Under the pieces are notes generated by a model, which had not been told where the DNA came from, did no database searches, and saw nothing but the letters and a program-made list of their open reading frames with translations. DNA of 23,253 bases from a virus. Made by a program: the position numbers and the translations under genes. The DNA lies in IMG/VR virus record IMGVR_UViG_3300037502_001973, positions 1 to 23,253 of that record, one strand, 5' to 3'. How positions within the stretch are numbered: the first letter of the stretch is position 1; the number at the start of each line of letters is the position of its first letter. Below are positions 7,372 through 23,253 of the stretch, in pieces.

Positions 7372-7381
7372 CCCACAGGTT

Positions 7382-8290: not shown

Positions 8291-8305
8291 CCGCTGCCAC
8301 CGCCC

Positions 8306-9459: not shown

Positions 9460-9475
9460 CCCGACCCGCTTTGAT

Positions 9476-9973
9476 ATGGCCGCACCTACAAACGCCGCGC
9501 TGCTGGACTACGAGGGCAACATTGAGGACGCCGTTGCCACCTATCTTGCGGCTTCGCTGGCGAGCACGCAGATTCTTACCTCGCGCACGATCCTTTCGAC
9601 CAGCGGGACGCTTAGCACGCCGCGGGTGACGGTTAGCGTGCAAGTCGGCGGCACGAATCCAAACCAGCAAAACAACCGCACGACGGACGGCGGCGAATAC
9701 GATTCGCACAAGCTGGCGACTCTCAGCCTTGATTGCACGGTGCGGCGCGATGCGAGCGGGCAATCGCTCGGCACTCTGCGCGGAAGCGTGCGCGTGGCGA
9801 TGCTACAAGCTACGGCGGCGCTAACGGCGGTCAACTTGCCGTATTATCAGATCATTACCCTGCGCGAATCGGCTTCGGCAATGGCGAGCGATGCCGTAAA
9901 CGACGAGATTTCGCATACGCTCTCCTACCAGTTGGAGTTCTTCATCAAGCCCGATCAATGGGCCGCCAGTTGA
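9476..9973 (+). CDS. Tail terminator-like protein (gpU position)
   Basis: The 165-residue protein (ATG at 9476 chosen, since upstream in-frame codons overlap the previous gene) opens with LLDYEGNIEDAVATYLAASL, a helix typical of tail-terminator proteins. It continues with alternating strands (VTVSVQVGG, LDCTVRRDASG) and ends YQLEFFIKPDQWAAS. Tail terminators cap the tube after it reaches the length set by the tape measure. Position immediately before the tail tube gene supports this. No ribosome site is visible at 9476. Confidence 0.5.
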   Translation: MAAPTNAALLDYEGNIEDAVATYLAASLASTQILTSRTILSTSGTLSTPRVTVSVQVGGTNPNQQNNRTTDGGEYDSHKLATLSLDCTVRRDASGQSLGTLRGSVRVAMLQATAALTAVNLPYYQIITLRESASAMASDAVNDEISHTLSYQLEFFIKPDQWAAS

Positions 9974-10023
9974 CGCCTGCGCGCTTTTCAAGGTTTTCCG
10001 CGAACATTTAACCACCCGCTCCC

Positions 10024-10386
10024 ATGCCCTATTCTGACGGCACTTTCCCCTCTGGCTCGCCCACGGTCACCATCAACAGCGTTGCGTACAAGGCCAACAG
10101 CTTCACGGTCAACAAGCCGGCGAACACGGTGAACATCACCGACAACAACGGCGACCCGTCCGGCGCGCTTTCGTTCAAACAGCCGTACACCGGAACCGCG
10201 GAGGTCCAGTTCTCGGCGTCGAATATCGCCGAGCCGACGACCGCCGCGGAGAACAGCACGACCGGCACCTTCGTCGCGAACATCGAAGGCGGCAACGTAA
10301 ACGTGTTTATCACCGCGGTCACGATCAACAAGCCGAAGGACGCTCCCTGGACGGCCTCGCTTACTTGGCAGGAGAAGATTAACTAA
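10024..10386 (+). CDS. Major tail tube protein (putative)
   Basis: The 120-residue protein is almost entirely beta-type (TVTINSVAYKANSFTVNKPA, TAEVQFSASN, NVNVFITAVTINKP). It ends in a WTASLTWQEKIN strand, as in tail-tube subunits. It precedes the chaperone and tape-measure genes, the canonical order. Rings of such subunits form the tail tube. Codon use is C-rich, in keeping with an abundant virion protein. The first seven residues (MPYSDGT) are the same as those of the 605-residue protein encoded at 12506. Confidence 0.6.
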   Translation: MPYSDGTFPSGSPTVTINSVAYKANSFTVNKPANTVNITDNNGDPSGALSFKQPYTGTAEVQFSASNIAEPTTAAENSTTGTFVANIEGGNVNVFITAVTINKPKDAPWTASLTWQEKIN

Positions 10387-10413
10387 GCGGCGCCGCACGT
10401 CGGCGTTCTGGCG

Positions 10414-11055
10414 ATGTCTGGCTTCGTTGAAATCCCAGGCTTTGCCGAGGCGGTAAAGCACGAGCAGCAGGTGCGCCGGCAGGCTTTTGCGGGCGTGCCT
10501 GTTCGCATTTGCGGGGTTTTGGTGCGCGACCTGACCCTTCGTGACCTTGAGGTTTTGGAGGAGCTGGAAAACGGTTTCTTCTGCCCGTGGCGCTTCGATA
10601 CGGACTTCGAGTTTCTGGCCCACTGCGCGCAGCTTGTGTGGTATCTTTCGGACTGTCCGAAACCCAAAGGCGATTCGCCGCTTTCGTGGGGCTACATCGT
10701 GGCAAACGCCGAGCGGAAAAAGCTGAACCTGCGGCTGGCGCGGCACCCGGATCGGCTGGCAAAAGACACGACCGCCTACCTCAAGCGGCAGTTCATGGAC
10801 GCGCCGAAGGGCCAGACCGGGCACGTCGCCCAATGCGCGACCGCGGCGGGCGTGGCGTACATTCTCGATGCGCTGGCGGCGGGCGGCTACGCGGCGGACA
10901 TTGACCGTTTGATGGCGATGCCGCTCCCGCAGGTCTGGCAACTCGTGCGCCTAGTGCAGCGGCGCGTGTTCGGCCAGACGCTCACCAACCCATCCGACAA
11001 GCTGGCGACGGACTACCTCGCGCAGATGGCGCACCAAAAGCAGGGCAACAACTGA
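10414..11055 (+). CDS. Tail assembly chaperone-like protein
   Basis: The 213-residue mainly helical protein sits between the tail tube and tape-measure genes, the position of lambda gpG-type chaperones that keep the tape measure soluble. Features include VRICGVLVRDLTLRDLEVLEELENGF and a C-terminal helix ending in a charged QMAHQKQGNN. Many chaperone genes produce a longer G-T form by programmed frameshift. I see no convincing slippery heptamer near the 3' end and no long continuation frame, so none is annotated. It ends seven bases before the next start. Confidence 0.5.
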   Translation: MSGFVEIPGFAEAVKHEQQVRRQAFAGVPVRICGVLVRDLTLRDLEVLEELENGFFCPWRFDTDFEFLAHCAQLVWYLSDCPKPKGDSPLSWGYIVANAERKKLNLRLARHPDRLAKDTTAYLKRQFMDAPKGQTGHVAQCATAAGVAYILDALAAGGYAADIDRLMAMPLPQVWQLVRLVQRRVFGQTLTNPSDKLATDYLAQMAHQKQGNN

Positions 11056-11062
11056 CACGGCA

Positions 11063-12493
11063 ATGGCTACTTTCGGCGTAGGCTTCAAACTCACGGCGGA
11101 TGCCTCCCAATTCCAACGGGAGATGCGCGAAGCCGTAGACGCGGGCAAGAAGGTCAAAAGCACCTTTGAGACCATCGGCATCTCGCTTGGGCCGGGCATC
11201 GGCTTGGCGCTGCTGGCTCGCTCCTTTATCAATCTCGCCAACGCGGCGCAGCAGGCGCGCGACGAAGCCAGGGCGGCGGGCATGGAAATCGACAAGTCCG
11301 TCGAAAGCGTGGCGGCGTTCGGCGACGGGCTAGACTCGCTGAAAAAGGGCGTGGTCAACTTTGGCATCGAGGCGCTGTCGATCTTCACCCGCGTCGGCGA
11401 AGAGTTGGGACGTGGCTGGCTGACTTGGACCGAAGGCGCCACAGCGCAAAGCGCAAAGGCCGCGGAGAACATCAGCCGCGACGCCGAGGAGAACATCAAA
11501 CGTATCGCCGCCGCCCGCGCCAAGTTCTTGGCCGACGAAGCGAAGAACATCGAAGCCGCGGAAGCGAAGATTGCGCAAATCCGCGAGGCGCGAGCGATGA
11601 AGGAAATGGACAGCGAGCAGCGGTTGCAGAAGTTGCTCGCCGAGCGCGAGACCATCAGCACGCAGCTTGCGGCGACGGACGAGAAATCGCTAAAGGCGCG
11701 GCAGCTCCGCGTGCAGATCGAGGAATCGCTTACGAAGGAGGCCGAGCTTCGGGCGCAAATGGAGAAACAGGCGGCGGAAGAAGACGCCAAGACGCAAAAG
11801 GCCATCAGCGAAGTTGAGCAGCAGCGGGAAAAGAATCAGGAGCGAATCTTGGCGCTCAAGTATCAGGCGCTTCCGCCGGAGCAAAAGATCGCGCAGCTTA
11901 CGAAAGAGCAGGCCGACCTTGTTTCCGGTATCGCGCGGCTGAAGCAGGCCGGGCAGGATACGTCTGCGCTGGAAGTCCTGCTGCTTGAAAAGCAGGCCGA
12001 GCTTGCGACGTTGCGGCTTGGCGTGGAAAAGGAGCTGACCGCCGAGGGCGAAAAGCAGGCGGTTGCGGAGGAGCGAAAGGCGAAAGCGAAGTCCGCTTTC
12101 GGGCTCGGCCCTATCCGCACTTCCGCGCAATTCGGCGAGTCGAGCGACGAGGCGCTGCGGCAACTGGCGCAGGCCAACCGGCAACTTGCGAACGAGATTC
12201 GCAACCCGGCGCTTGGCGGCGGCACGTTCAACAACGGCGAGGCGGCGCGGCTTGAGTTCGAGGCGCGCAACGCGGAAAACGAGATTCGGTTCCGCGAATC
12301 GCTGCGGCGCGATTTTCAGCTCGGCGGCGAGGACTTGGCGCGTCGCAACTTCAAGGGTGACCCGCTGGCGTTCGATGCCGTGTTCGCGCGCTTCGTTGAC
12401 GACGCCCGCGACTCAAAGGAGATCGCCCGCGAGCAGACGGACCAACTGAAAGACCTGAACGAACGGCTGCGCCGGGCCGGCTTCGGCAAGTAA
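11063..12493 (+). CDS. Tape measure protein (short)
   Basis: The N-terminus (FGVGFKLTADASQFQREMREAVDAGKKV) has the typical opening of tape-measure proteins. It is followed by a hydrophobic stretch (~residues 50-75) and a long Ala/Glu/Lys/Gln-rich coiled coil (~140-360). At 476 residues it is well under lambda H (853), so a comparatively short tail is expected if length scales as usual. The last ~60 residues are charged and helical. No peptidase or lysozyme domain is apparent. There is no ribosome site before the ATG. Confidence 0.65.
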   Translation: MATFGVGFKLTADASQFQREMREAVDAGKKVKSTFETIGISLGPGIGLALLARSFINLANAAQQARDEARAAGMEIDKSVESVAAFGDGLDSLKKGVVNFGIEALSIFTRVGEELGRGWLTWTEGATAQSAKAAENISRDAEENIKRIAAARAKFLADEAKNIEAAEAKIAQIREARAMKEMDSEQRLQKLLAERETISTQLAATDEKSLKARQLRVQIEESLTKEAELRAQMEKQAAEEDAKTQKAISEVEQQREKNQERILALKYQALPPEQKIAQLTKEQADLVSGIARLKQAGQDTSALEVLLLEKQAELATLRLGVEKELTAEGEKQAVAEERKAKAKSAFGLGPIRTSAQFGESSDEALRQLAQANRQLANEIRNPALGGGTFNNGEAARLEFEARNAENEIRFRESLRRDFQLGGEDLARRNFKGDPLAFDAVFARFVDDARDSKEIAREQTDQLKDLNERLRRAGFGK

Positions 12494-12505
12494 CCACGCG
12501 ACGAC

Positions 12506-14323
12506 ATGCCATATTCAGACGGCACATACACTTCCGCGGTGCAGAACGGGCCGAAGCGCACGTTTTACCCGTTTCTCAACTCGCCGACGAAGGACAGCAC
12601 GACGAAGGGCACGGTCCGCAATTACGTTGTCCTTCCGGGCAGCTATTCGCCCGCGGCTGCGCTGACGACCGACCCCGACGACGCGACGCAATACCTGATC
12701 GAAGAAAGCGAGCTTTCCGTAGAGGGCGGCGTGGGCCGGTTCGCGCGCACGTTTTGCAAGGTGCCGGGCACGCAGACGGTGCCGACTAGCGTGGCGGTTT
12801 CCAAGCCGCAGATTCCGGGCGATGACACTTTCCCGAAGGTCATAGGCAGCTACCTTGTGACGCAGCCGGACACGACGCTTCCGCGATTCGATGCGTATTA
12901 TAGGCAGACCGTCACCAGCGACACGGGCGCACCGGGCTTTTACCCGACCGGCGGGACGTACACGCTGACATTTGCCGGCAACACGACCGGCGCGCTGAAC
13001 TACAACGACAGCGCGGCGACGGTGGAAACGGCGCTCGATGCGCTAACCAGCGTGAACAACCGCGGCGGATGCACGGTTACCGGCTCCTACAACTCTGCGG
13101 GCGGGCTCGTTGTGACTTTCGCCAGTTACGCGCAAATCACGATTGCGAGCGGATCGCTGACTGGCACCGGCACGCTTACGGAAATTGAAAGCCTGTCGAA
13201 TTCTGGATATTCTCAAACAGTTGGCGCATACTTTGTTCCGACCGCCTACACGCCTACGGCGGACATGTCGCTTTTGACTTATTCTTTTGGAGCCCCGCTG
13301 CTTTCTACATCTTCGCCGTCATCAAATATCAGGCAATACGAAATTTTCCTGTCCCCTTATGGTGGCAACTTTACGGGTGGAACATATACGCTCACAATAA
13401 ACGGCAACACGACATCCGCAATCGCCTACAACTCGACATTTGCTCAGGTTGCTACCGCCCTTAATAATTTGGGGATAGGTACATTTTCCGTCGTTGCTGG
13501 CCTTTCTTCTGGAACCTCTACTCCGCTTTCTAGTGATGCCCGCTTAATTCAAGCCCAAATCATTTTTGAGGATGCGCCACCCACCGGAGGCACCTTCACG
13601 CTAACCGTAGGCGCCGATACAACCGCATCAATCGACTACGATGCCACGGCCTCGGAGGTTCAAACCGCGCTAAACCTGCTTACATCCGTCACCAACCGCG
13701 GCGGATGCACGGTGTCTGGCGAGATTCAAACGGGCTTTGCCATCGCGTTTGCAAACGCGGTAATGACGGCAAACTCCGCGTCGCTCACTCCAGCAGGCTC
13801 CACAGCAACGCCGAGCATTACGGACGGCAGCATCGGGCGCACGCAGAAGATTGTTTTCGCATCATCCTCCGCGACGCGAGACCTCTATTGCGCCAACCAC
13901 GGGTTGACCACGGCCAACACGCTTTTCCTCAAAAGCGGATCGACCTACTACGCTGGCATTCTCGGCTCCAAGTTCATTGTTCCCGACGCGAATACGATTC
14001 GCTTGCTTGTCGCGGCCTCGGACGATTACGCGGCTGCCGGCACGATTACCGAGCTGGGCGGGCGTACAAAAGCCAGTTACCAGCCCGGAAGCGTGCTGAT
14101 TCCAGGATCGCAGATCACGAACTTCTACTTGCCCGGCGTGACATCCGGCATCACGACCGCCGCAGACATTCCCATCCCTAGCAGCGCGGCCAACGATACC
14201 GACTTGCTGCTGGCGATCTTCTCCGGCTCCTCAACGATCAACACCAACGTCGGCCAGCTCCAACCGTGGCGCGGGCCTATCCTGTCGCTGACCTATGAGC
14301 AGGTGTCAGCGGCCAACGTATGA
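12506..14323 (+). CDS. Distal tail protein with three beta repeats
   Basis: The 605-residue protein contains three ~60-residue modules beginning GGTYTLTFAGNTT (~149), GGTYTLTINGNTT (~291) and GGTFTLTVGADTT (~361). Each continues with a Y-N/D-x-x-A...V-x-x-A-L helix and a second beta part. Modules of this kind recur in very large bacterial surface proteins, so a receptor- or matrix-binding role is plausible. The first residues (MPYSDGT) match the tail tube protein's start, which may mean a shared assembly peptide. Module 2 lies in a markedly AT-richer stretch. The stop overlaps the next ATG (ATGA). No known tail-tip family is recognisable. Confidence 0.5.
   Translation: MPYSDGTYTSAVQNGPKRTFYPFLNSPTKDSTTKGTVRNYVVLPGSYSPAAALTTDPDDATQYLIEESELSVEGGVGRFARTFCKVPGTQTVPTSVAVSKPQIPGDDTFPKVIGSYLVTQPDTTLPRFDAYYRQTVTSDTGAPGFYPTGGTYTLTFAGNTTGALNYNDSAATVETALDALTSVNNRGGCTVTGSYNSAGGLVVTFASYAQITIASGSLTGTGTLTEIESLSNSGYSQTVGAYFVPTAYTPTADMSLLTYSFGAPLLSTSSPSSNIRQYEIFLSPYGGNFTGGTYTLTINGNTTSAIAYNSTFAQVATALNNLGIGTFSVVAGLSSGTSTPLSSDARLIQAQIIFEDAPPTGGTFTLTVGADTTASIDYDATASEVQTALNLLTSVTNRGGCTVSGEIQTGFAIAFANAVMTANSASLTPAGSTATPSITDGSIGRTQKIVFASSSATRDLYCANHGLTTANTLFLKSGSTYYAGILGSKFIVPDANTIRLLVAASDDYAAAGTITELGGRTKASYQPGSVLIPGSQITNFYLPGVTSGITTAADIPIPSSAANDTDLLLAIFSGSSTINTNVGQLQPWRGPILSLTYEQVSAANV
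13196..13580 (+). other. AT-richer inserted segment in tail gene
   Basis: This stretch is visibly lower in GC than its flanks; for example 13321-13380 has 26 G/C of 60, against a typical ~60% or more around it. Codons shift to TTT, ATT, CTT and AAT types. The segment encodes the second beta repeat and its linker. Repeats 1 and 3, on either side, share an exact 20-base sequence (13058-13077 and 13694-13713) that repeat 2 lacks. This suggests the middle module came from another source. Confidence 0.65.
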
Positions 14324-14613
14324 GCCAGATTCCGCAACCGCCGCGGGACGACGTGTTGCCGTGGTTCCTGCAAAATCCGCAGGTTCCGGCGGAAACGGTT
14401 GGCGCCGTGAACAAGTTGCTGCGCGTGCGCGTAGTCGTGCGCACCGCGGGCACTAGCTCACTTCTTATCAGCGATTCAGAGGCCGTTTTGACTATCTCCA
14501 CCAAAGACGTGGACTTGGGCACCATCACGGGATCCAAGGCCGGTAATGCGGCTTTGACGAACCTTCTAGGCGCATTGCGGCGCGTGTTTACGCTCACCGA
14601 TACGACGAGTTGA
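14320..14613 (+). CDS. Small hypothetical tail-region protein (97 aa)
   Basis: The ATG overlaps the previous gene's stop (ATGA), so the two are probably co-translated. The product starts with a Pro-rich segment (MSQIPQPPRDDVLPWFLQNP). It continues with short helices and beta strands (RVRVVVRTAG, AVLTISTKDVDL) and ends GALRRVFTLTDTTS. No transmembrane segment or enzymatic motif is visible. Its place among distal-tail genes suggests a small virion or assembly component, but the family is not recognised. Confidence 0.5.
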   Translation: MSQIPQPPRDDVLPWFLQNPQVPAETVGAVNKLLRVRVVVRTAGTSSLLISDSEAVLTISTKDVDLGTITGSKAGNAALTNLLGALRRVFTLTDTTS

Positions 14614-14635
14614 CGAGTCCCCTAACTTTTGAGCT

Positions 14636-15895
14636 ATGGCGCGCAACGACGTTTACCTTTACACTAACGCGACCTCTCCCGCGGATGCGGTCGTCACGGC
14701 TCAACAGGACACGACAGCGGCAACCGCGCCCGACTTGGTTCTCGGGGACGCGCCGCTGTTCAATTTCCGGTTCACGGACGGTACCGGGAGCTGGCCGAGC
14801 TGGGCAGGAGACAGTAGCTACACGGTAACATGGGCGCTGAGTCAGAGCGTAGCCGGCGACGAGCCTCCGCTTGCCCTGCAAACGCAGGCAACCGCAATCA
14901 CGGGCGGATGGTCGATCCGGCTCCCGGTTAATACGGGCGCGCTGGCGAATGCACTCGGCGCCAAATACGTGCCGCAGGATTTCCCGGTTGTGCGGCTGTG
15001 GCAGCATATCCGCGTCACGGACTCGGACGGCTACCCGGTCACGTATGCGCTTATCCGCACCAACGTCCGGCTGCGCGCAATCTCCGACACGCAGCAGACG
15101 CCGAACTCCCCGCTGCCGAGTGGCACGTCCGCGGTCCTCGTCGATTCCTCCGGCGTGCTGGTTTCGCCGACCAACTTTTTCGAGGCCAATCTCCGCTCGT
15201 CGCTGACTGTGCCGGTGGCCTATATCGCCGGAAGCGCAACCGACGAACAGGGTTACGGCGGATTCACGGCTCCGGTCGCCATGACCGTGCTTGGCGTGCA
15301 GCTCACCGCGCAGACCGCGCCGGTCGGCTCCGCGCTAACGGTCGATCTGACGGACGGCAACGGCAGCGAGCTTTCGCTTGTGTCCACGCTCGCCGCGGGA
15401 TCGCAGCACCAGCAGACCACGTTCGGCACCGCCTATTCGCTCGCCGCAGGCGGCGTGCTTAAGGTCAGGGTCAAGAGCGTCGGCAGCACCACGCCGGGCG
15501 GTTACGTGGCGGTCAACCTCGTGTGCCGGTTTGCCAACTCGGCGGATGCGGGCAAAGCCTATCCGCTCGCGGGCGTTTTCTTCGGCACCGCGACCGACGA
15601 GCAGACGTTCGGCGGCTTCACCGCAATCGTGCCGACGGACATTCTCGGAATCCAACTTTCCGCGCAGGTCGCGCCGGTCGGATCCGACATCACGGTTGAC
15701 CTCGTAGATTCCAACGGCACCGAGCTGGGCACCCTCGGCACGCTCGCAGCCGGCAGCAAGTACCAGGCGACCGACTTCGCCACCGTGACCGCGCTAGCCG
15801 CGTCCGATTACGTGCGGCTTAAAATCAAATCAGTCGGCAGCAGCACCGCGGGCGCCTACCTCACCGCTACGCTCGTCACCCGTCCCACCGCTTGA
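14636..15895 (+). CDS. Tail/adhesin protein with tandem duplicated domain
   Basis: The 419-residue protein has an N-terminal part (to ~190) with FNFRFTDGTGSW and a WSIRLPVNTGALANAL region. Two ~100-residue repeats follow (about 195-298 and 312-416). Each repeat runs: F-x-G-x-A-T-D-E-Q-x-x-G-G-F-T-A, L-G-V/I-Q-L, A-P-V-G-S, T-V-D-L, then K-S-V-G-S-x-T. Duplicated beta-sandwich domains of this kind suit multivalent receptor or surface binding. Neighbouring genes are also repetitive virion-type proteins. No signal peptide is present, unlike the next gene. Confidence 0.5.
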   Translation: MARNDVYLYTNATSPADAVVTAQQDTTAATAPDLVLGDAPLFNFRFTDGTGSWPSWAGDSSYTVTWALSQSVAGDEPPLALQTQATAITGGWSIRLPVNTGALANALGAKYVPQDFPVVRLWQHIRVTDSDGYPVTYALIRTNVRLRAISDTQQTPNSPLPSGTSAVLVDSSGVLVSPTNFFEANLRSSLTVPVAYIAGSATDEQGYGGFTAPVAMTVLGVQLTAQTAPVGSALTVDLTDGNGSELSLVSTLAAGSQHQQTTFGTAYSLAAGGVLKVRVKSVGSTTPGGYVAVNLVCRFANSADAGKAYPLAGVFFGTATDEQTFGGFTAIVPTDILGIQLSAQVAPVGSDITVDLVDSNGTELGTLGTLAAGSKYQATDFATVTALAASDYVRLKIKSVGSSTAGAYLTATLVTRPTA

Positions 15896-15924
15896 CCGTT
15901 CCGCCTATGCACAAGATTCACGCC

Positions 15925-17244
15925 ATGAAATACCGCCTTCTCACTTTCGCCGTCGCGCTTTCGCTCGCTGCCAGCGCGCTCGCTCAGGTCACGATTCCCG
16001 CTTCCGACATCGGCACCGGCACGCTGGCCTCCGGCGTGACGATCACGGTCGGCTCTGGCGCGAACATCACGACCAGCGGCACGGGCGCAATCTCGGCGAG
16101 CAATATCACCAACAACGCCACCGCGCAGGCGATCAAAGCCAGCGGCAGCGCCGGCATCGAGCTTCAAAACAGCGCCGGAACGAACGTCGTCATTGTGGGC
16201 GCTGGCGGGGGCACCGGAATCTCCCTGCTCGGCAACGTGTCGGCGGGGAATATCACGCTAACAGGTAACATCACCGGCAACGGCACGTTCACCACGCCGG
16301 CCCTCGGCACGCCCGTTTCCGCGACGCTGACCAACGCCACCGGGCTGCCAATCTCGACCGGCGTATCCGGCCTCGGCAGCGGCGTCGCTACCTTCCTTGC
16401 AACGCCGAGCAGCGCCAACCTCATCTCCGCCGTCACGGACGAAACCGGCACCGGCTCGCTCGTCTTCGGGACGTCGCCCACGCTCACAACGCCGAACATT
16501 GGAGCAGCTACCGGAACCAGCGTAAACGTCAGCGGTGCGCTCACCGGCGGCTCTGTTGTCACTAACACGATCACCGGCAACCCGACCGTTTCCGGCAACC
16601 TCACCGTGAGCGGGACGGGCACGAGCACGTTTGCGGGGAGCCTCCACCTAGATGGTGGGAGCAAGCGGTTTCGCGTGCGCGACACCGCAATCCTCGACGC
16701 AAATTACGACACCCTGACCATTTCCGCTCAGGCGCAAAAGATTTTTGGTATTGGTGTCGGGGCGGTCGGTGGTGCACCTGCGCAAATCACGATCAACGGC
16801 GAGACAAACGCAGTAGCCATCAAAGGCACCACGACCAACGACAACGCCGCGACCGGCTACGTCGGGGAGTACGTGAGCAGCACGGTGGCGAGCGGGAGCG
16901 CGGTGAGCCTGACGACGGGCGTTTCCGCGAACGTCACGAGCATCAGCCTGACGGCGGGTGACTGGGATGTTACGGGCGTGCTGCTTTTCAACCCGAACGC
17001 GGCGACAACGTTCACGTACCTTGTCGGTGGTGCATCCACGTCATCGGGTACTGTACCGGGCACGGATGCGGGGGCGCAGGTGTACAACAGCTTCAGTTCG
17101 CCGGTCATAAACCCTCGGTTCGCTATCCCAATGAAGAGGGTATCGGTGGCGAGCACCCAAACGGTCTACCTCGTGGCCGAGGCGGGTTTCGCGGTGAACA
17201 CGATGGCAGCTTACGGGCGCATTGAAGCCCGCCGCGTCCGCTGA
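15925..17244 (+). CDS. Tail-fibre-like protein with signal peptide
   Basis: From the ATG at 15925 (439 aa) the protein begins MKYRLLTFAVALSLAASALA followed by Q. That is a textbook Sec signal with positive start, hydrophobic core and A-x-A cleavage. In-frame starts at 15892 and 15907 would spoil it. The mature part is low-complexity Gly/Thr/Ser/Asn-rich, with TPALGTPVSATLTNATGLP and TGVSGLGSGVATFLATPSSA segments that are widespread in phage tail fibres. It ends in a YGRIEARRVR strand like trimeric fibre tips. Sec export is unexpected for a tail fibre assembled in the cytoplasm. It may instead be an exported surface or periplasmic protein made during infection or lysogeny. Confidence 0.6.
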   Translation: MKYRLLTFAVALSLAASALAQVTIPASDIGTGTLASGVTITVGSGANITTSGTGAISASNITNNATAQAIKASGSAGIELQNSAGTNVVIVGAGGGTGISLLGNVSAGNITLTGNITGNGTFTTPALGTPVSATLTNATGLPISTGVSGLGSGVATFLATPSSANLISAVTDETGTGSLVFGTSPTLTTPNIGAATGTSVNVSGALTGGSVVTNTITGNPTVSGNLTVSGTGTSTFAGSLHLDGGSKRFRVRDTAILDANYDTLTISAQAQKIFGIGVGAVGGAPAQITINGETNAVAIKGTTTNDNAATGYVGEYVSSTVASGSAVSLTTGVSANVTSISLTAGDWDVTGVLLFNPNAATTFTYLVGGASTSSGTVPGTDAGAQVYNSFSSPVINPRFAIPMKRVSVASTQTVYLVAEAGFAVNTMAAYGRIEARRVR

Positions 17245-17262
17245 CCTTCACCCTCTGCACCT

Positions 17263-17643
17263 ATGAAATACCTACTCGCCCTCCTCGCCCTCACCGTCGC
17301 GGCCTTCGCCGCCGAACCTGTCGTGACCGTTGACCTCTACGGCAACGTGTTCCTTGACGGGGCCAACACGAACCAGCAGATTGGCGACTTCGCCCGCAAC
17401 AACCCGGCCCTCGCCCCGCAGGTGGACGGCGCTGTGCGCGACGCCGCCCTCGCCGCCCGCGCCCGCATCGCCGCCGACATCAAAGCCGCGACGGACGCCG
17501 CCGCTGCGCAGGTCGCCGCGAAAGAGGCGGAAAAGGTCGCCGCCCTCGCCGCGAAGGACGCGCAGATCGCCGCCCTGCAAGCCCGCATCGCCGAGCTGGA
17601 AGCCGCCGCCCAACCGCCCGCGCCGCAGCCGGAGAACCCGTAA
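17263..17643 (+). CDS. Exported coiled-coil protein (spanin-like candidate)
   Basis: The 126-residue protein starts MKYLLALLALTVAAFAAEP, a signal peptide or N-terminal membrane anchor. A DLYGNVFLDGANTNQQIGDF segment follows, then a long Ala/Lys/Glu/Gln-rich coiled coil (residues ~60-115) and a Pro-rich tail (QPPAPQPENP). Anchor plus periplasmic coiled coil resembles an inner-membrane spanin, and a lipoprotein gene downstream (18551) could be its partner. The first ten bases (ATGAAATACC) match those of the preceding signal-peptide gene. The spanin idea is inference; the TM/coiled-coil protein at 18829 competes for the role. Confidence 0.5.
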   Translation: MKYLLALLALTVAAFAAEPVVTVDLYGNVFLDGANTNQQIGDFARNNPALAPQVDGAVRDAALAARARIAADIKAATDAAAAQVAAKEAEKVAALAAKDAQIAALQARIAELEAAAQPPAPQPENP

Positions 17644-17644
17644 C

Positions 17645-18160
17645 GTGCCCTTCTGGCGTCGCAAACCCACGGTTGAAGTCCCGCGCGTGCCCGCTTGGCG
17701 GGCGCCGCTGGACGGTCGCACGTTCACCGCGATGCAGGTGCGGCAGGAGATTCAGCGCCTGACCACACCGTTTACGGCCATTGACACGACAGACGCGACG
17801 TTCGCGCCGCTGTCGCACGAATGGTTCACGGAGGCGCTTGACTGGTCGTGGCACTTCGCGAAGGCGACTGGTCTGGCGTACACGCCGGAATCCTTCGACT
17901 GCGACAAGTTCAGCCTCGCGCTCGCCCTCGCCGCCAACATCGCCGCCGGGCGCGCGGGCGTCAAAGCCCAGCCGCTTCTTGCCCGCATCCACGTGAACAA
18001 CCTCGTGCCCTGGGCCGGCGTGCGCGACGGCGCCCACGCCCTGAACGCAGCTATGACCGACCGCGGCCTGTTCGTGGTTGAGCCGCAGAACCGCACCACC
18101 GCACCACTCGCGGATTACCCCAACCGCGCGCAAATTTTCCGCGTAAAGCTCGGAGGCTAG
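17645..18160 (+). CDS. Papain-like, MOA-type (agglutinin C-terminal) protein
   Basis: I choose GTG at 17645, one base after the previous stop; a longer frame exists but overlaps the upstream gene in another frame. The 171-residue product contains FDCDKFSLALALA, later DGAHALNAAM and then FVVEPQN. Cys, His and the EPQ/N region in this order are the pattern of papain-like cysteine-protease domains related to the C-terminal domain of Marasmius oreades agglutinin, often annotated in phages as 'lectin MOA-related'. Its role in phages is not settled; sited among exported and membrane proteins, a lysis or cell-envelope function is plausible. The catalytic residues are assigned by eye. Confidence 0.5.
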   Translation: MPFWRRKPTVEVPRVPAWRAPLDGRTFTAMQVRQEIQRLTTPFTAIDTTDATFAPLSHEWFTEALDWSWHFAKATGLAYTPESFDCDKFSLALALAANIAAGRAGVKAQPLLARIHVNNLVPWAGVRDGAHALNAAMTDRGLFVVEPQNRTTAPLADYPNRAQIFRVKLGG

Positions 18161-18161
18161 C

Positions 18162-18554
18162 ATGGGCGCACCATTCCCGAACGGACCGGCTCAAATCAAA
18201 CGCACGGCACCGCGCCGGGGCGAGCTACTAGACGACTTCGTTTTTGATTCTCCGACGATGGGGCGCCTCGTGGTCGAAAAGGGGTTTGATACCGATTACG
18301 CCAGCGTTCCGCGCATCTTTTGGGCGATCTACCCGCCGGACGGTGCCTATACCGATGCCGCCGTGGTTCACGATTGGGCCTATTGGTATCAGACCATGAC
18401 GCGCGAAGAGGCCGACAACGTGTTTCTTGAAGCGATGGCCGCGCTTGGGATTCCCTGGCTGCGACGCCACATCCTACACAAAGCCGTGCGCGCTGGCGGC
18501 TGGCTCGCGTGGAAAACCAACGCCCGCAAGATCGCCGAGCACTCTGCCGCATGA
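18162..18554 (+). CDS. DUF1353 family protein
   Basis: The 130-residue protein carries the DUF1353 signature: VVEKGFDTDYASVPR, then DGAYTDAAVVHDWAYW and a helical C-terminal part with a Trp-rich end. This small family is common in phages and prophages, usually near lysis or late genes; its function is unknown. The DTD and HDW groups look like a potential metal or catalytic site. One of the few good ribosome sites in the window (GGAGG, 1 turn upstream) precedes the ATG. The stop overlaps the next ATG (ATGA). Confidence 0.75.
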   Translation: MGAPFPNGPAQIKRTAPRRGELLDDFVFDSPTMGRLVVEKGFDTDYASVPRIFWAIYPPDGAYTDAAVVHDWAYWYQTMTREEADNVFLEAMAALGIPWLRRHILHKAVRAGGWLAWKTNARKIAEHSAA

Positions 18555-18832
18555 ATACCAACACGTTCGCCCGCGCTTTGCTGTCCATTCTCGCCGCTGG
18601 CCTCGCCGCCGGTTGCACCGCCATCTCCTACAAAGACCAAACCTCTGGCGCGTCGTTCGTTTACCTGTCTCTCGGCACGGATCGCAAGCTTGGCGCCATC
18701 CGCGCCAAGGTTGATGGCGACAAAAAGGATGTTACAATCGGCGCCAGCGAATCCGCGCAGTCGGTCACCGCCAGCAACGCAATCGACGCCGCGCGGTCCA
18801 CCGTCTCACCCATCACCATACCGCAGCCATGA
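18551..18832 (+). CDS. Small lipoprotein
   Basis: From ATG 18551 the 93-residue protein has FARALLSILAAGLAAGC, a lipoprotein signal with LAAGC as lipobox (Cys at about residue 22). The mature part (TAISYKDQTSGASFVYLSLG) is polar and ends IPQP. It overlaps both neighbours by ATGA junctions, so it belongs to a coupled late cluster. In phage lysis cassettes a small outer-membrane lipoprotein is often the o-spanin, but this one is longer than the usual Rz1-type and only slightly Pro-rich. A superinfection-exclusion or envelope lipoprotein is an alternative. Confidence 0.6.
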   Translation: MNTNTFARALLSILAAGLAAGCTAISYKDQTSGASFVYLSLGTDRKLGAIRAKVDGDKKDVTIGASESAQSVTASNAIDAARSTVSPITIPQP

Positions 18833-19098
18833 GCGACGAGCAGCGAGACCGCATCAACACCGCAATCGACATCATCTACAAGCTGGGCACGCCCATCGGT
18901 CTTGCCGCTCTGTTCTGGCTCAACAACACTTTTGCCAGCGTCGAAGAGGTAAAGCAACTAGGTGAGCGGCTGACCAAAGTCGAAACAGCGATTCAGCTTC
19001 TCGTCAAAGACGCCGAGGTGAACGGGCGCCAAGACGCCGCCCTGCAAGATCACGAAGGCAGATTGCGCAGCCTAGAGTTCCGCCGCGCGTCCCAATAA
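18829..19098 (+). CDS. TM plus coiled-coil protein (holin-like or spanin-like)
   Basis: The 89-residue protein has a polar N-terminus, one hydrophobic segment (LGTPIGLAALFWLNNTFA, residues ~19-36) and a heptad-rich tail (VEEVKQLGERLTKVETAIQLLV and beyond). One TM followed by a coiled coil fits either a small holin-type protein or an inner-membrane spanin. It is coupled (ATGA) to the lipoprotein gene, which favours the envelope-disruption module. No signal cleavage site is apparent. Which role applies cannot be decided from sequence. Confidence 0.5.
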   Translation: MSDEQRDRINTAIDIIYKLGTPIGLAALFWLNNTFASVEEVKQLGERLTKVETAIQLLVKDAEVNGRQDAALQDHEGRLRSLEFRRASQ

Positions 19099-19108
19099 AG
19101 CACAACCT

Positions 19109-20119
19109 ATGACCAACGCCGCAATCGTCGCCGAAGCCTGCCAAGAATTTCCAGACACGCCGACGAAAACGCTGGCACGGGTTTTGTATAAAAGGCACTC
19201 GGCACGCTGGCCGACGTTCAACGCTTGTATGCTGGCTATTCGCTACCAGCGCGGCAACCTCGGCAAAAAACACCGACACAATGCAAGGGCTTCATCCGCT
19301 AGGCCGAATCAGCCCTCCGGCTTCAAGTGGGAATTTCCGCAAAGCCACGCGAAGGCGTGGGAGCCGTTCACGTTGGATTCCCCGCGCACGCTGATCCTGT
19401 CGGACCTGCATATTCCGTTTCACGACACGTCGGCAATCATGCCGCTTGTGCGCGACGCGAAACGCTGGCTCAGGCCGGGCGACTGCGTGCTTCTCAACGG
19501 CGACGTTTGCGACTTCTTTTCGATTTCGCGCTTCGACAAAAACCCGACCGAATCCTCGCTCAAGCTGGAGCTGGAAAGCACGCGCGCATTTCTCGGCTGG
19601 CTGCGCGCTCAGTTCCCGCGCTGCCGGATCGTCTACAAGTTTGGGAACCACGACGAATGGTTTGACAAGTACCTTTGGCGAAAGGCGCCGGAGTTGTTCG
19701 GGCTGGCGCAGGTTCGCCTCGAACATTTGCTCACGCAGCCTATTCCCGGCGCCGAGCCTGCAATCGGCGGCATTGAGTTCATCACGGACCAAAGGAAAAT
19801 CGTCGCCGGCCACCTTGACATTCTCCACGGCCACGAACTCGGCAAGGGGTCCATCGCACCACCGGTGAACCCCGCCCGCGGATTTTTCCTGAAAACGATG
19901 GAGTGCACCCTCGCCGGCCACCTCCACCGCACCAGCCAGCACCAGGAGCGCACGAGCAAGGGCAAGCAGATCGCCTGTTGGTCCACCGGCTGCCTCTGCG
20001 GCCTGTCGCCTGATTACGCGCGGATCAACAAGTGGGACCACTCCGCCGCACGCCTCGATCTGTCCGGCGACGATTTTCAAGTGACGCCGCTGCGCGTCAT
20101 CAATGGCAAGCTCGTGTGA
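19109..20119 (+). CDS. Calcineurin-like metallophosphoesterase
   Basis: The 336-residue protein has the full set of calcineurin-superfamily metal motifs: SDLH (98-101), GDVCD (131-135), GNHDE (179-183), HGHE (240-243) and GHLH (270-273). These bind two metals and hydrolyse phosphodiesters or phosphomonoesters. Residues 1-60 form a separate basic helical domain (TLARVLYKRHSARWPTFNACM) that might bind nucleic acid. Phage-encoded enzymes of this group are often called SbcD- or phosphatase-like, with unknown substrate. It is the last rightward gene. Its 3' end overlaps the end of a leftward gene by 20 bases, a convergent junction. Confidence 0.85.
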   Translation: MTNAAIVAEACQEFPDTPTKTLARVLYKRHSARWPTFNACMLAIRYQRGNLGKKHRHNARASSARPNQPSGFKWEFPQSHAKAWEPFTLDSPRTLILSDLHIPFHDTSAIMPLVRDAKRWLRPGDCVLLNGDVCDFFSISRFDKNPTESSLKLELESTRAFLGWLRAQFPRCRIVYKFGNHDEWFDKYLWRKAPELFGLAQVRLEHLLTQPIPGAEPAIGGIEFITDQRKIVAGHLDILHGHELGKGSIAPPVNPARGFFLKTMECTLAGHLHRTSQHQERTSKGKQIACWSTGCLCGLSPDYARINKWDHSAARLDLSGDDFQVTPLRVINGKLV

Positions 20120-20446: not shown

Positions 20447-20719
20447 CTACCTGTTCGGCTTGCCATTCCACGCGCAGAGCAGGTTTCCGCTCGGGTCGCA
20501 GGGAAGGCTTGCGTCGGCGCGTGAAGAAGATGGGAAAAGCCACTCATTGCACTTCGGGCAATTTTCTCCGCTGGGGCTGTGGTGGTCGCGGGTAGTCCAC
20601 TCCCATTGGTGCCCGCACTCGCATTTGAATCCGCGCCAGCCTCGGCGCACCTCAGAAGCCGAACCCGTCGCCGGAGCCAACGGAGCGGTCGCTTCCGGTT
20701 TCGTTTCCTGATTCTTCAT
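20447..20719 (-). CDS. Zinc-ribbon protein reading through an attC-like element
   Basis: The 90-residue frame contains CECGHQW (Cys33, Cys35) and CPKC (Cys54, Cys57), a zinc-ribbon arrangement, and two later Cys (74, 82). Residues 1-23 (MKNQETKPEATAPLAPA...) are encoded by the attC-like element at 20658-20783. The same N-terminal peptide recurs, almost unchanged, in the element at 22408-22533 before an unrelated gene. The native start may therefore be GTG at 20650 (RRGWRGFKCECG), just after the element's GTT box. The ATG at 20719 overlaps the stop of a 17-codon leader ORF (20716-20769). Function unknown; nucleic-acid or protein binding are typical of such ribbons. Confidence 0.6.
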   Translation of the reverse strand: MKNQETKPEATAPLAPATGSASEVRRGWRGFKCECGHQWEWTTRDHHSPSGENCPKCNEWLFPSSSRADASLPCDPSGNLLCAWNGKPNR

Positions 20720-20783
20720 AGGTAGTTTGGCCCAGTTGCGGACATTTCATTTCCCGCTCCGTGGCTCATCTTTGACGTTAGCC
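20658..20783 (-). repeat. attC-like element A
   Basis: Read on the plus strand: GCCGAAC (20658), nine bases, GAGCC (20674), arm ACGGAGCGG preceded by an extra A, a long variable middle, the complementary CCGCTCCGT, GGCTC (20763), nine bases, GTTAGCC (20777). The ungapped 112 bases 20670-20781 match element D (22420-22531) at 96 positions (86%). The PAPS-reductase-like gene ends in its GTTAGCC box (TAA on the minus strand). A leader ORF of 17 codons starts at 20769 and overlaps the zinc-ribbon ATG. Box layout follows integron attC sites. Confidence 0.7.
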
Positions 20784-21638
20784 GCCGTCATAGCACCCGC
20801 AGGGAGCGTGCGCCGGCTCAATGTCGAGCCACAGTTTCACCTGACTCGCGTCCATCGCCAGCCAGTTGGCCCAGAGGTTCCGCTCGCCGCCGAGCCCACG
20901 CAACTGCCGGTTCGCGCCGGTCTGCGCGCGGCGCTCGATCTCCAAAGCGCGGGCCAGCAACTCCGGTTGTTCGTCGCGCAGTCGCAGCACCTCGCCGCGC
21001 TTCATCGCCGGACAGAAAAAGCAGGCCGATTTTCCAGGCTGCGGAAGCCCGTGCCGCGCGATTGCGGCCACGCACTCCTCGCGCCGCCAGCCCCACTCGA
21101 CGAGTGGATACCAGTTCACCGCGTAGGCGTCAGGCGATGGTTTCACCCTGTGCGCTTCGCCAGCGTCGAAGCCGATTGCCCGCATTGCTACCTTCACCCC
21201 GCGCTCCTTCATCACGGCGCGCATGTATCTATTTTGCGGCTCGTGCTTGTATTTCACGGAGCAGGCGCGCGAGCCATAGGCCAGCGCCGGCAGCTTCGCG
21301 CCGCGCAGGCACTCACGTTCAAGCCCCTCAAATTCTCCGGCGCGCAGCTTGCGGCACACGCGCAGCTCGATCCCCCACCACGATAGCACCTGCGCCTGCA
21401 TCATCGCGACGTGTTCGTAGGTGTGCGGCATCTCCGAGCCGGTATCCGCGAAAAGCACAAGATCGGGGCGGATTCCACGTTCGCGCAGTCCGCAGAGCAT
21501 AGCCGTGGAGTTGGTTCCGCCGCCGAAAGAAACGGCTAACAAGGCGCCAGAGCCAACGCCGACAGCGGTCAGTGGCTGTTCGGGCGTCTGTCCGGCATCG
21601 GATTCCAGTTGAAATTCTGCGCTGTCGGCGTGGCTCAT
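20778..21638 (-). CDS. PAPS-reductase/ATP-pyrophosphatase-like protein
   Basis: The core starts LLAVSFGGGTNSTAML (residues 33-48), a variant of the SGGxDS PP-loop that binds ATP or PAPS. It continues with LFADTGSEMPHTYEH and RACSVKYKHEP (Cys126), and has a CFFCP pair (Cys206, Cys209) that could bind zinc or an Fe-S cluster. This is the pattern of phage-encoded PAPS-reductase-like proteins, related to DndC/CysH, which adenylate or transfer sulfur; the true substrate is unknown. The first ~30 residues are encoded by attC-like element B, so the native start may be the TTG near residue 33. The stop codon lies in element A. It fills an 869-base unit between the two elements. Confidence 0.75.
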   Translation of the reverse strand: MSHADSAEFQLESDAGQTPEQPLTAVGVGSGALLAVSFGGGTNSTAMLCGLRERGIRPDLVLFADTGSEMPHTYEHVAMMQAQVLSWWGIELRVCRKLRAGEFEGLERECLRGAKLPALAYGSRACSVKYKHEPQNRYMRAVMKERGVKVAMRAIGFDAGEAHRVKPSPDAYAVNWYPLVEWGWRREECVAAIARHGLPQPGKSACFFCPAMKRGEVLRLRDEQPELLARALEIERRAQTGANRQLRGLGGERNLWANWLAMDASQVKLWLDIEPAHAPCGCYDGG

Positions 21639-21652
21639 CTTAAACGTTCGCC
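21534..21652 (-). repeat. attC-like element B
   Basis: On the plus strand: GGCTAAC (21534), AAGGCGCCA, GAGCC (21550), an unpaired A, the arm ACGCCGACAGCG, a variable centre, the perfect 12-base complement CGCTGTCGGCGT, GGCTC (21632), nine bases, GTTCGCC (21646). It has the most regular stem of the five. The small gene 21640-21810 ends inside it (TAA at 21640-21642) and the PAPS-like frame starts at its ATGAGCC (21638). Spacing and boxes parallel class 1 integron attC sites. Confidence 0.75.
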
Positions 21653-21810
21653 AAAATGACTTCTACCTTGATTACGTCGAAATCTACCTCGCACTCCATT
21701 TCGTCGGCCTGCGCGAGTGCATGATCTAGCCGGCCATGAAACCGCTCGGAGTGCTTGGCGTTTTCGCCGTGCAGCGTGATCAGCCAAAAGCGATATGGAT
21801 TCTTTTTCAT
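21640..21810 (-). CDS. Small hypothetical protein (56 aa)
   Basis: The protein (MKKNPYRFWLITLHGENAKHSERFHG...) is compact and alternates strand and helix: YRFWLITLHG, a helix with HALAQADEMECEV, then DVIKVEVILANV. It has the character of a real small globular protein. It lies nine bases after the preceding gene's stop, and its own stop lies one base before the ATG used by the PAPS-like frame. It shares one 474-base unit with the upstream zinc-binding gene. Function unknown. Confidence 0.65.
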   Translation of the reverse strand: MKKNPYRFWLITLHGENAKHSERFHGRLDHALAQADEMECEVDFDVIKVEVILANV

Positions 21811-21819
21811 GCGGCCATT

Positions 21820-22113
21820 TTACGCTGTATCGGCCCGGCAAACCACCCCTGCATCGGTAGTGCGCGACTTGCGGTACCATCGCGCAAATCGCGCCGATGC
21901 GAGCCGGCGGTGGTGCTCACAAACCCGAATGCCGGGGACCACTGGGCGAATGCACGAATGATGCGCGCATATAAGGCCGCGTTCGGCAAGCGGACGCAGG
22001 GCGAACAAGGCGCCAGAGCCAACACGCACAGCCGGCACGGGTGCTGGCGTCTGCGGTTGCTCGGACATTTCGAGCGCGAATGGTGCGGCGTCGCCGCTGT
22101 GCGTGAGGCTCAT
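21820..22113 (-). CDS. Small zinc-binding protein with attC-encoded N-terminus
   Basis: The 97-residue frame has CAHHSC (Cys49, His51/52, Cys54) and CEHH (Cys65, His68). A G-I-R-V-C-E-H-H-R-R pattern recalls small phage proteins with a C-x4-C...C-x2-H zinc knuckle. The C-terminal part is basic (ARFARWYRKSR), so nucleic-acid binding is possible. Residues 1-38 (MSLTHSGDAA...VGSGALFAL) are encoded by attC-like element C and probably are not part of the native fold. No ATG lies between the element and the Cys motif, so translation may need the element's start codon. Confidence 0.55.
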   Translation of the reverse strand: MSLTHSGDAAPFALEMSEQPQTPAPVPAVRVGSGALFALRPLAERGLICAHHSCIRPVVPGIRVCEHHRRLASARFARWYRKSRTTDAGVVCRADTA

Positions 22114-22126
22114 CTAGATGTTGGGC
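22000..22126 (-). repeat. attC-like element C
   Basis: On the plus strand: GGCGAAC (22000), AAGGCGCCA, GAGCC (22016), an extra base in a 9-bp arm (ACGCACAGC pairing with GCTGTGCGT), GGCTC (22107), eight bases, GTTGGGC (22120). GTTGGGC is a perfect match to the integron core GTTRRRY. The membrane-protein gene ends (TGA) at 22127-22129, just outside the box. ATGAGCC at 22113 begins the frame reading into the zinc-binding gene. Confidence 0.7.
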
Positions 22127-22393
22127 TCACTCGATGACCTTCGCTTCCTCGGCAGGCTTCGACTCGTCGCGCGCTTTTATTTCACGCGCCTGCTCCAGTG
22201 AGTCAGCCCGCTTGTGGACCCTCCAGCCGGGGTGACGCACATATTTATAGACCCAGTATGCGCCATCTTCTTTCCGTATCTGAATCGCACCGTCGATGGG
22301 GTCGCCCTGACTGTTTGAGATAGCCCGGAACATTCCAGTGAGGGCAAGCGCCAGGCCGCCGAAGATTAGAAGTGCGTTCATTTTAGGTTTCAT
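22127..22393 (-). CDS. Small single-TM protein
   Basis: The protein (88 aa from 22393, or 84 from an in-frame ATG at 22381) begins MNALLIFGGLALALTGMFRAI, one transmembrane segment or uncleaved signal. It continues with a soluble part (GAIQIRKEDGAYWVYKYVRHPGWRVHKRADSLEQAREI). The 22381 start lies one base after the stop of an attC-encoded leader ORF, suggesting reinitiation there. It fills a 407-base unit between elements C and D. Family not recognised; membrane-anchored with a cytoplasmic or periplasmic beta/helix domain. Confidence 0.6.
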   Translation of the reverse strand: MKPKMNALLIFGGLALALTGMFRAISNSQGDPIDGAIQIRKEDGAYWVYKYVRHPGWRVHKRADSLEQAREIKARDESKPAEEAKVIE

Positions 22394-22469
22394 TCGTGAG
22401 TTTCAAAGCCCAACTAGCCGCCGGAGCCAACGGAGCCGTCGTTTCCGGTTTCGTTTCCTGTGTTTTCAT
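22383..22469 (-). CDS. attC-encoded leader ORF (28 aa, doubtful)
   Basis: A 28-codon frame (MKTQETKPETTAPLAPAASW...) starts in element D at an ATG that overlaps the stop of a 17-codon leader (22466-22519). It ends one base from the ATG of the membrane-protein gene. Its first 17 residues are nearly the same as those preceding the zinc ribbon in element A. It may serve only to carry ribosomes across the hairpin. Confidence 0.3.
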   Translation of the reverse strand: MKTQETKPETTAPLAPAASWALKLTNET

Positions 22470-22533
22470 AGGTGATTTGAGCCGCGTGCGGGTGTTTCAT
22501 TTCCCGCTCCGTGGCTCATCTTTAACGTTAGTC
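22408..22533 (-). repeat. attC-like element D
   Basis: On the plus strand: GCCCAAC (22408, perfect RYYYAAC), nine bases, GAGCC (22424), an extra A, ACGGAGC pairing with GCTCCGT, GGCTC (22513), nine bases, GTTAGTC (22527). It is 86% identical to element A over 112 ungapped bases. The Cys-rich gene's stop (22528-22530) lies in its right box. Leader ORFs of 17 and 28 codons, joined by an ATGA overlap, cross it. Confidence 0.7.
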
Positions 22534-22743
22534 TGCTTCACGGATTTTGTAGCCGTTCTTTCGGTCTATCGCGATAGCGGTTTCGCAGTAGCAGTATTTT
22601 CCCCAGCTTCCTTTGATGTCGAACACCTCTACTTTCCTCACAGTTCCTTGGCAGTCGCCGTCTCGCTTGCACGCACCTTCGCAGACTAACCATGCGGTTA
22701 CAGACAACGGCGACAATGCGAATTGGTTTTTGGAAGAGTTCAT
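22528..22743 (-). CDS. Small Cys-rich protein (71 aa)
   Basis: The protein has five Cys (21, 25, 31, 51, 53) in VCEGACKRDGDC and YCYC, with a GTVRKVEVFDIKGSW strand region between them. The spacing suggests a metal-bound or disulfide-stabilised fold. The ATG at 22743 is the only reasonable start because an in-frame TAA lies three bases upstream of it. Another open frame overlaps its first two thirds. The stop codon lies in element D, as in other units of the array. Function unknown. Confidence 0.6.
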   Translation of the reverse strand: MNSSKNQFALSPLSVTAWLVCEGACKRDGDCQGTVRKVEVFDIKGSWGKYCYCETAIAIDRKNGYKIREAD

Positions 22744-22861
22744 AGTTTACCAGCACAAAAGGCGAAAGGGAAGCCACCACAGCGCGGTCATATTGACCGC
22801 ACCCGCAGCGAAGCAGGCCGCGGCGCGGCTTGTATTTCACGAAGTCCCCAACGGCTAACAA
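22538..22861 (-). pseudogene. Overlapping frame, likely truncated cassette gene
   Basis: The frame can start at TTG 22861 in element E or at GTG 22840. It encodes VGDFVKYKPRRGLLRCGCG and QYDRAVVASLSPFVLV, which looks like a genuine small phage protein. After about residue 40 (near 22745) the sequence turns Arg-rich and loses protein character, just where the Cys-rich gene begins in another frame. I therefore suspect a gene truncated by a frameshift or by fusion. A short intact gene with unread 3' extension is also possible. Confidence 0.35.
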
Positions 22862-22964
22862 AGCGCCAGAGCCAAATGACCACCGCCGACCTTTTGCGTG
22901 CTGGCGGTGGCAGATTTTCCGTCTCGGGCTGATCCGGCTGGCTGGTATGTGCGTTGCTGGTCAT
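22788..22964 (-). CDS. attC-encoded ORF (58 aa, doubtful)
   Basis: Element E lacks the usual ATG because its box reads ATCAGCC, but an ATG five bases further on opens a 58-codon frame (MTSNAHTSQPDQPE...). It crosses the whole element and ends inside the next gene in a different frame. Residues beyond the element (LWRFVSRWGLREI) do not look like a folded protein. It may be only a leader. Confidence 0.25.
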   Translation of the reverse strand: MTSNAHTSQPDQPETENLPPPARKRSAVVIWLWRFVSRWGLREIQAAPRPASLRVRSI

Positions 22965-22985
22965 GGCTGATCTTTGAAGTTCGGC
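22853..22985 (-). repeat. attC-like element E
   Basis: On the plus strand: GGCTAAC (22853), nine bases, GAGCC (22869), two unpaired A residues, ATGACCA pairing with TGGTCAT, GGCTG (22965), nine bases, GTTCGGC (22979). An inner 8-bp stem (CCACCGCC with GGCGGTGG) is also present. It is the least regular member, with one changed base in the right L box. The phage-type gene ends (TGA) one base beyond it. Confidence 0.6.
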
Positions 22986-23253
22986 TCAATAGAGGTTTTC
23001 GCTAAATAGTTGAGTTGAGTCGCCGCCGCATCGCTTACGGAGTTGACCGTTGGTAAGCGCGACTTCCAGCGCATGTTCGCGTGTCAGGAAATTGCCTCGC
23101 TGGTCGATAAATCCCTGCTCCGCGTTTCGCCAGATCACCGCGCCGTCGATGCTGTAATTGATTTGGGCGCGCATCAGCGGATCAAAGTGCCGCGCCGAGC
23201 AGATGATACGGCCGGCCCTGTTCCGAATAGCCGCGCACACGATCCATGCCGAA
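22986..23253 (-). CDS. Phage 'LFSENLY' family protein, 5' end outside window
   Basis: The frame is open to the right edge (SAWIV precedes CAAIRNRAGRIICSARHFD), so the start is probably beyond the window; a GTG at 23240 is the only start inside. The motifs RIICSARHFDPLM, EQGFIDQRGNFLTREHA, GQLRKRCGGD and the closing LFSENLY define a small uncharacterised family that is common in phage genomes. Its presence argues that the leftward segment is phage DNA or phage-derived cargo. It ends one base from element E. Confidence 0.7.
   Translation of the reverse strand, partial: SAWIVCAAIRNRAGRIICSARHFDPLMRAQINYSIDGAVIWRNAEQGFIDQRGNFLTREHALEVALTNGQLRKRCGGDSTQLFSENLY

Follow-up and report, generated by a model that had tools for sequence, protein, structure and literature searches.

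The stretch of viral DNA studied here, hereafter referred to as the window, comprises 23,253 nucleotides (nt) of an IMG/VR virus record (IMGVR_UViG_3300037502_001973, positions 1 to 23,253). Most of it is occupied by the late module of a tailed phage, next to which an array of five elements (E1 to E5) interspersed with small genes runs off the end of the contig (Table 1). These elements display the structure of attC, the recombination site of integron cassettes. The late module had been recognized in an original prediction made from the sequence alone, and PHROGs and Pfam searches identified in it the portal and major head protein genes, as well as tail genes. That prediction also described the array: the positions of the elements and the sizes of the units between them (869, 474, 407 and 452 nt) proved correct, whereas a probable extra cassette on the left and the minus-strand location of the genes had been overlooked. 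Our results indicate that the five elements are almost certainly attC sites carried by a phage, and that the window is probably best explained as an integron cassette array with approximately five complete cassettes (C0 to C4) and part of a sixth (C5), whose genes are reversed with respect to attC.

The five attC elements and the cassette boundaries

As initially described, the R''/L''/L'/R' layout can be read in all five elements, with AAC...GTT boxes and an imperfect L''/L' pairing in which one arm bears an extra base. This layout, the nine-base spacers and the extra base on the L'' arm are shared with class 1 integron cassettes. Given that an Rfam search returned no attC match in the window, custom attC models were built. 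A covariance model (CM R1) was constructed using no sequence of the window, its 19 attC sites coming from genomes of Opitutaceae and other Verrucomicrobiota. Its matches in the window corresponded exactly to the five elements, all on the plus strand, at full length and with exact ends (E from 5.7e-12 to 1.5e-6); the next-best match reached 11.3 bits (E 0.36). The integron attC identity proposed beforehand is thus supported by covariance model matches at every element. A second scorer was built solely from nine class 1 attC sites of plasmid records and used to rank both strands of the window, where E2, E1, E4 and E3, in this order, occupied the top four places. The first three of these exceeded every background score: 642 kb of other phage DNA peaked at 29.0 and the 30 shuffled windows at 29.8. 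E3 fell within the background range and alone would not stand out, and E5 was missed, so that the class 1 scorer was insufficient as sole detector. In predicted bottom-strand folds, the basal stem was visible in E1, E2 and E3, and other folds were favored by E4 and E5.

In an integron array, each cassette carries its own R'' box together with the R' box preceding it, and pairing is therefore expected between each R' box and the R'' box of the following site. Complementarity at the four junctions of the window was 7, 7, 7 and 6 of 7 positions, and it was complete (7/7) at all 32 junctions of host integrons; moreover, this pairing across junctions was more frequent than pairing of boxes inside one site. 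Following this rule, one more cassette, C0, probably lies to the left of E1, and a second GTTCGGC at 20129 constitutes an alternative to the left boundary listed in Table 1. E1 and E4 with their surroundings (20656-20790 and 22406-22540; 135 nt, repeat D1) are 82% identical and have alike loops and similar leaders (MKNQETKPEATAPLAPA and MKTQETKPETTAPLAPA) followed by different genes, as if a single attC had received new cargo.

Gene orientation and start codons within attC

The attC sites lie on the plus strand and the identified genes on the minus strand, that is, antisense to attC and opposite to host cassettes. The genes are indeed located between the attC sites, as predicted, but neither their orientation nor the starts inside attC had been seen. 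Rather than running in the attC sense and ending near R'', those genes that have family matches run antisense and have their starts in or beside an attC. This differs from class 1 cassettes, in which sense genes end near R'' and attC supplies no start codon; class 1 arrays are read from the Pc promoter.

The open reading frame (ORF) of the PAPS-reductase-like gene of C1 has its ATG in the L' arm of E2, runs across the entire attC and closes with the TAA that lies in the E1 R' box, with approximately the first 34 residues of the predicted protein encoded by E2. ATG, GTG and TTG are all absent between E2 and the conserved SFGGGTNST motif of this gene, and most of its relatives align from residue 34, where attC ends. 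Since no start codon usable by this gene lies outside attC, E2 would be translated as its N-terminal leader, a double role shown here at the level of reading frame and homology. A leader of the E2 type is also present in phage L143 (MSHEDSANFQLASDAG... vs MSHADSAEFQLESDAG...), and the differences between the two amount to 3, 6 and 11 at codon positions 1, 2 and 3, respectively. The PAPS-reductase homologues of Opitutaceae genomes had no attC of the window's family nearby.

A predicted start inside attC is likewise well supported for the zinc-ribbon gene of C0, whose L143 homologue (63% identical) also sits between attC sites. Starts of this kind may extend to the short ORFs; the C3 gene begins 15 nt after E4, not inside it, and overlaps the stop codon of a short leader ORF whose start lies in E4. 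Overall, the evidence supports well an array of reversed cassettes with starts in attC.

Table 1. Features of the window (aa, amino acids).
Feature	Position	Strand	Evidence or remarks
attC E1	20658..20783	+	CM R1 42.6 bits, E 7.2e-10; class 1 scorer 39.1
attC E2	21534..21652	+	CM R1 50.2 bits, E 5.7e-12; class 1 scorer 40.9; bottom-strand fold z -3.7
attC E3	22000..22126	+	CM R1 37.2 bits, E 2.4e-8; class 1 scorer 27.8
attC E4	22408..22533	+	CM R1 36.9 bits, E 2.9e-8; class 1 scorer 34.1; repeat D1
attC E5	22853..22985	+	CM R1 30.6 bits, E 1.5e-6; missed by class 1 scorer
Probable left boundary, R' box GTTCGGC before C0	20453..20459	+	7/7 complementary to E1 R'' GCCGAAC; near zinc-ribbon stop codon
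Probable cassette C0 (with E1)	20454..20777	+	R-box rule, gene ends
Cassette C1 (with E2)	20778..21646	+	R boxes 7/7 complementary
Cassette C2 (with E3)	21647..22120	+	R boxes 7/7 complementary
Cassette C3 (with E4)	22121..22527	+	R boxes 7/7 complementary
Cassette C4 (with E5)	22528..22979	+	R boxes 6/7 complementary
Cassette C5, incomplete, cut by contig end	22980..23253	+	After E5 R' box; gene matches phage family
Zinc-ribbon gene of C0, 90 aa	20447..20719	-	Predicted start codon in E1 loop; 63% identical homologue in L143; weak Zn_ribbon_8 match
PAPS-reductase-like gene of C1, 286 aa	20778..21638	-	phrog_424, E 1.6e-37, residues 31-246
56-aa ORF of C2	21640..21810	-	Stop codon just past boundary, within E2; read from sequence; no family match
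97-aa ORF of C2	21820..22113	-	Starts in E3 L' arm; open frame; no confident family match
88-aa ORF of C3	22127..22393	-	Open frame; no family match
71-aa ORF of C4	22528..22743	-	Stop codon in E4 R' box; open frame; no family match
C5 gene, 5' end incomplete	22986..23253	-	phrog_839, E 2.8e-24; ends directly after E5 R' box
Phage late module	1214..20119	+	PHROGs and Pfam
Portal gene	1214..3130	+	PHROGs/Pfam
Major head protein gene	6490..7371	+	PHROGs/Pfam
Metallophosphoesterase gene, last of late module	19109..20119	+	71% identical to gene of L146

Related integrons in Opitutaceae and in phages

The exact arm pattern of the window sites was found in 23 stretches of bacterial genomes, mostly of Opitutaceae and other Verrucomicrobiota. 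For instance, NEUS01000011.1 harbors at least 21 tandem sites of the window type adjoining an integron integrase, and in JAIXWF010000013.1 an intI lies near two such sites; furthermore, IntI above the curated cut-off was detected in 55 of the 150 Opitutaceae genomes sampled. The window shares its attC arms, boxes and R-box rule with these chromosomal integrons, showing that its sites belong to their family. The chromosomal integrons display the usual intI/attC geometry, with attC reading away from intI and the longest ORF mostly in the attC sense, whereas the phage genes are antisense; their attC loops are long perfect hairpins, whereas the phage attC loop encodes a leader. Opitutaceae genomes also contain relatives of the portal protein (best, 36% identical). 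As both the site family and the portal relatives point to the same bacterial family, the phage probably infects a host in or near Opitutaceae. No relatives were found through the major head protein, and a DNA similarity search of the INPHARED phages gave no match. The late module further includes, between head and tail genes, a glycosyltransferase-like gene (7496-8290, plus strand; phrog_1574, with a weaker match to phrog_34859). Among the Opitutaceae IntI, those of L030, L031, L028 and L029 are encoded by frames of approximately 440-670 aa with long N-terminal extensions, which in L030 and L031 contain GTDGTD-like repeats.

Pattern scans of IMG/VR revealed further contigs with sites of the window type, and on 21 of these loci CM R1 gave 58 matches with E of 0.1 or lower. 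Genes with a family match in the arrays of such phages are antisense to attC and often start within it. They include methyltransferase genes (L146, L179, L183, L190, L202, L207 and L180, all antisense), a Mom homologue (L183), a zinc ribbon gene (L143) and a gene matching phrog_12600 from residue 34 (L156). According to the longest ORF, 17 of 28 phage cassettes are antisense vs 6 of 32 host cassettes (Fisher p 0.0013), a measure that is noisy in GC-rich DNA and is applied to sites and cassettes that are not all independent. Two of these arrays adjoin phage genes, lying directly before the terminase gene in L143 and between the phosphoesterase and portal genes in L146, the latter being the phage whose phosphoesterase gene resembles that of the window. 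Contig L047 carries two attC arrays on opposite strands (3979-5139, plus; 9448-11249, minus). One attC of L146 (8760-8857, minus strand) is of almost host type (85 bits) and may have come recently from a host integron, the others in L146 being of the coding-loop type.

Regarding cassette movement, the original prediction had set cassette turnover against a fixed gene order in related genomes, and different genes were found between the sites. Prophages L156 and L159, two IMG/VR records with the same IMG genome number, have one cassette of 642 nt in common without a single difference. The identity starts at the AAC of one R box and ends 2 nt beyond the GGCGAAC of the other, this last box showing 7/7 complementarity to the end of the attC itself; outside the cassette, the stretches compared have a single common segment (69%). 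A search of 252 Opitutaceae genomes for the L156 cassette revealed no near-identical copy. The flanks of L002 and L038 are 76-90% identical, while the genes between them differ and only the attC stretches align. Among the distant relatives of the window, L143 shares one cassette gene with it and L146 none. In L197, two copies of one cassette start (3009-3117 and 4978-5086) share their leader and the first residues of the gene, as after a cassette duplication.

The integron integrase is absent from the window, as had been stated: no TIGR02249 match was obtained in the contig, and no intI with attI lies beside the array in this fragment. Clusters of attC sites lacking integron integrases are known as CALINs, and the fragment, with five attC, phage genes and no intI, corresponds to a CALIN in a phage genome (at least two attC, no intI). 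A search for the IntI-specific region yielded 33 IMG/VR contigs, with phage status checked for part of them; the search pattern came from a narrow alignment, a wider alignment of IntI fragments having given no usable one. IntI above the TIGR02249 cut-off (265) was found in L179 (313 bits), L183 (281), L188 (332), L190 (287), L197 (282) and G014 (272), and below it in G011 (213 bits). In the phages with both intI and array, the attC sites are placed and oriented as in normal integrons (5' of intI, reading away from this gene), but the genes run toward intI, in the intI direction. In a tree of 47 integrases, phage IntI formed clades of their own, apart from the Opitutaceae IntI; the largest had 11 members (support 100/98), and several deep forks of the tree were weak. 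Shuffling by a host IntI, as originally suggested, is possible, but the enzyme need not be the host's, as several array phages encode IntI. The window array would recombine through either an integrase supplied by the host or an IntI encoded by the phage itself in its unsequenced part.

Other observations concern integrase genes. Virus Rctr41k encodes an IntI-like protein, with no attC array found beside it. A gene present in both L165 (12406-13308, minus strand) and L175 (5239-6141) combines an attC leader with a short piece resembling a methyltransferase and with the C-terminal two thirds of IntI; this open frame may be a real fusion, a decayed cassette pair or an assembly fault. In the phage contig pairs L186/L188, L205/L206 and L200/L205, intI is the sole long DNA similarity, in one pair together with the 88 bp before intI, as if intI with attI had moved between phages. 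L186 also contains a 53-bp direct repeat (5364-5416 and 10004-10056; 98% identical), with one copy just before intI and the other 4.6 kb on.

Proposed reversed-cassette integrons as phage elements

We favor, as the likely explanation of these findings as a whole, a recombining integron array of reversed cassettes in a tailed phage. Each cassette would carry its gene on the bottom strand of attC, usually starting inside attC and ending near the neighboring R' box, and attC would double as a translated 5' leader between genes. The bottom strand would fold in single-stranded phage DNA, and an integron integrase would cut between the G and TT of the R' box, such that whole cassettes could be added or removed with most reading frames kept whole, as suggested by the window boundaries and the relatives. 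The cassettes would provide accessory phage genes, often DNA methyltransferases in the relatives, where they probably counter host restriction.

Several observations weigh against this explanation. The window, a fragment of the phage, contains no integron integrase, and no closely related phage genome was found that would reveal turnover of its array. Bottom strands of host attC fold better (z -5 to -6) than those of the phage sites (z -1.8, -3.7, -2.5, -3.2 and -0.1 for E1 to E5), and E5 is a weak site. In addition, the evidence for translation from inside attC consists of reading frames and homology, and the noisy longest-ORF measure places only 17 of the 28 phage cassettes antisense.

Some of these observations would also fit a relic, in which cassettes were captured once, recombination was lost, and attC sites were kept as spacers giving start codons and leader peptides. 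No integrase is found in the window, E1 and E5 fold weakly, and the leaders appear conserved as protein, judging from the codon positions at which E2 and the L143 leader differ. However, the R-box rule is still perfect at three of the four junctions, relatives exchange cassettes at the boxes, and the window has one cassette gene in common with L143 in another setting and none with L146 despite the similarity of the neighboring phosphoesterase gene. We regard a relic as unlikely. Far less probable is that the array does not belong to the phage, the window representing a prophage beside a chromosomal integron or a chimeric assembly: the array does run off one contig end and its sites are of the host integron family, but host cassettes combine sense genes with tightly folded attC, the arrays of L143 and L146 adjoin phage genes, and the C5 and PAPS-reductase-like genes match phage families. 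Finally, palindromic leader or regulatory repeats that merely resemble attC would agree with the start codons, the similar leader peptides and the alike loops of E1 and E4, but they can be practically discarded, as the same arms form arrays beside intI in host genomes, attC models recognize the elements, the exchanged cassette ends at R boxes, and repeats of this kind give no reason for the pairing of R boxes between neighbors.

For the favored explanation, a recombining array of reversed cassettes, the closest precedent is the report of integrons or attC clusters in 21 phages, in which IntI1 recombined five of the six phage attC tested (Qi et al., 2023; PMC9892861). An attC array does occur in a phage as originally predicted, but such carriage, considered very unusual in that prediction, was already published. 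The arrays found here in IMG/VR resemble those of that study as attC clusters in tailed phages with methyltransferase cargo; usability by IntI1 is a feature of that study's phages, which have host-like integrons or clusters of usual structure, unlike the reversed cassettes described here. The main text of Qi et al. mentions no reversed cassettes, start codons in attC, phage-specific IntI lineage or Verrucomicrobiota. The sites of their phage TJE1 were not found by the attC scorer used here. A literature search whose coverage lay outside subscription papers and preprints found no other description of such cassettes. Thus, carriage of attC by phages is known, and the reversed architecture with starts in attC and its link with phage IntI appear to be new.

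More tentatively, and with slightly less than even confidence, phages may hold integron lineages of their own, with phage IntI, reversed cassettes and attC acting as a mobile translation start, exchange anti-restriction and accessory genes through them, and be a birthplace of new attC-tagged cassettes. The use of one sequence as both recombination site and translated leader would be an unusual double use, and a cargo of methyltransferase and Mom-like genes suggests that, in the arms race with bacteria, this cassette system works for the phage. With respect to the open questions of how cassettes arise from genes and spread among bacteria, phages bearing cassettes in a layout that fits phage operons, some of them together with IntI, would constitute a vehicle and a possible source of cassettes.

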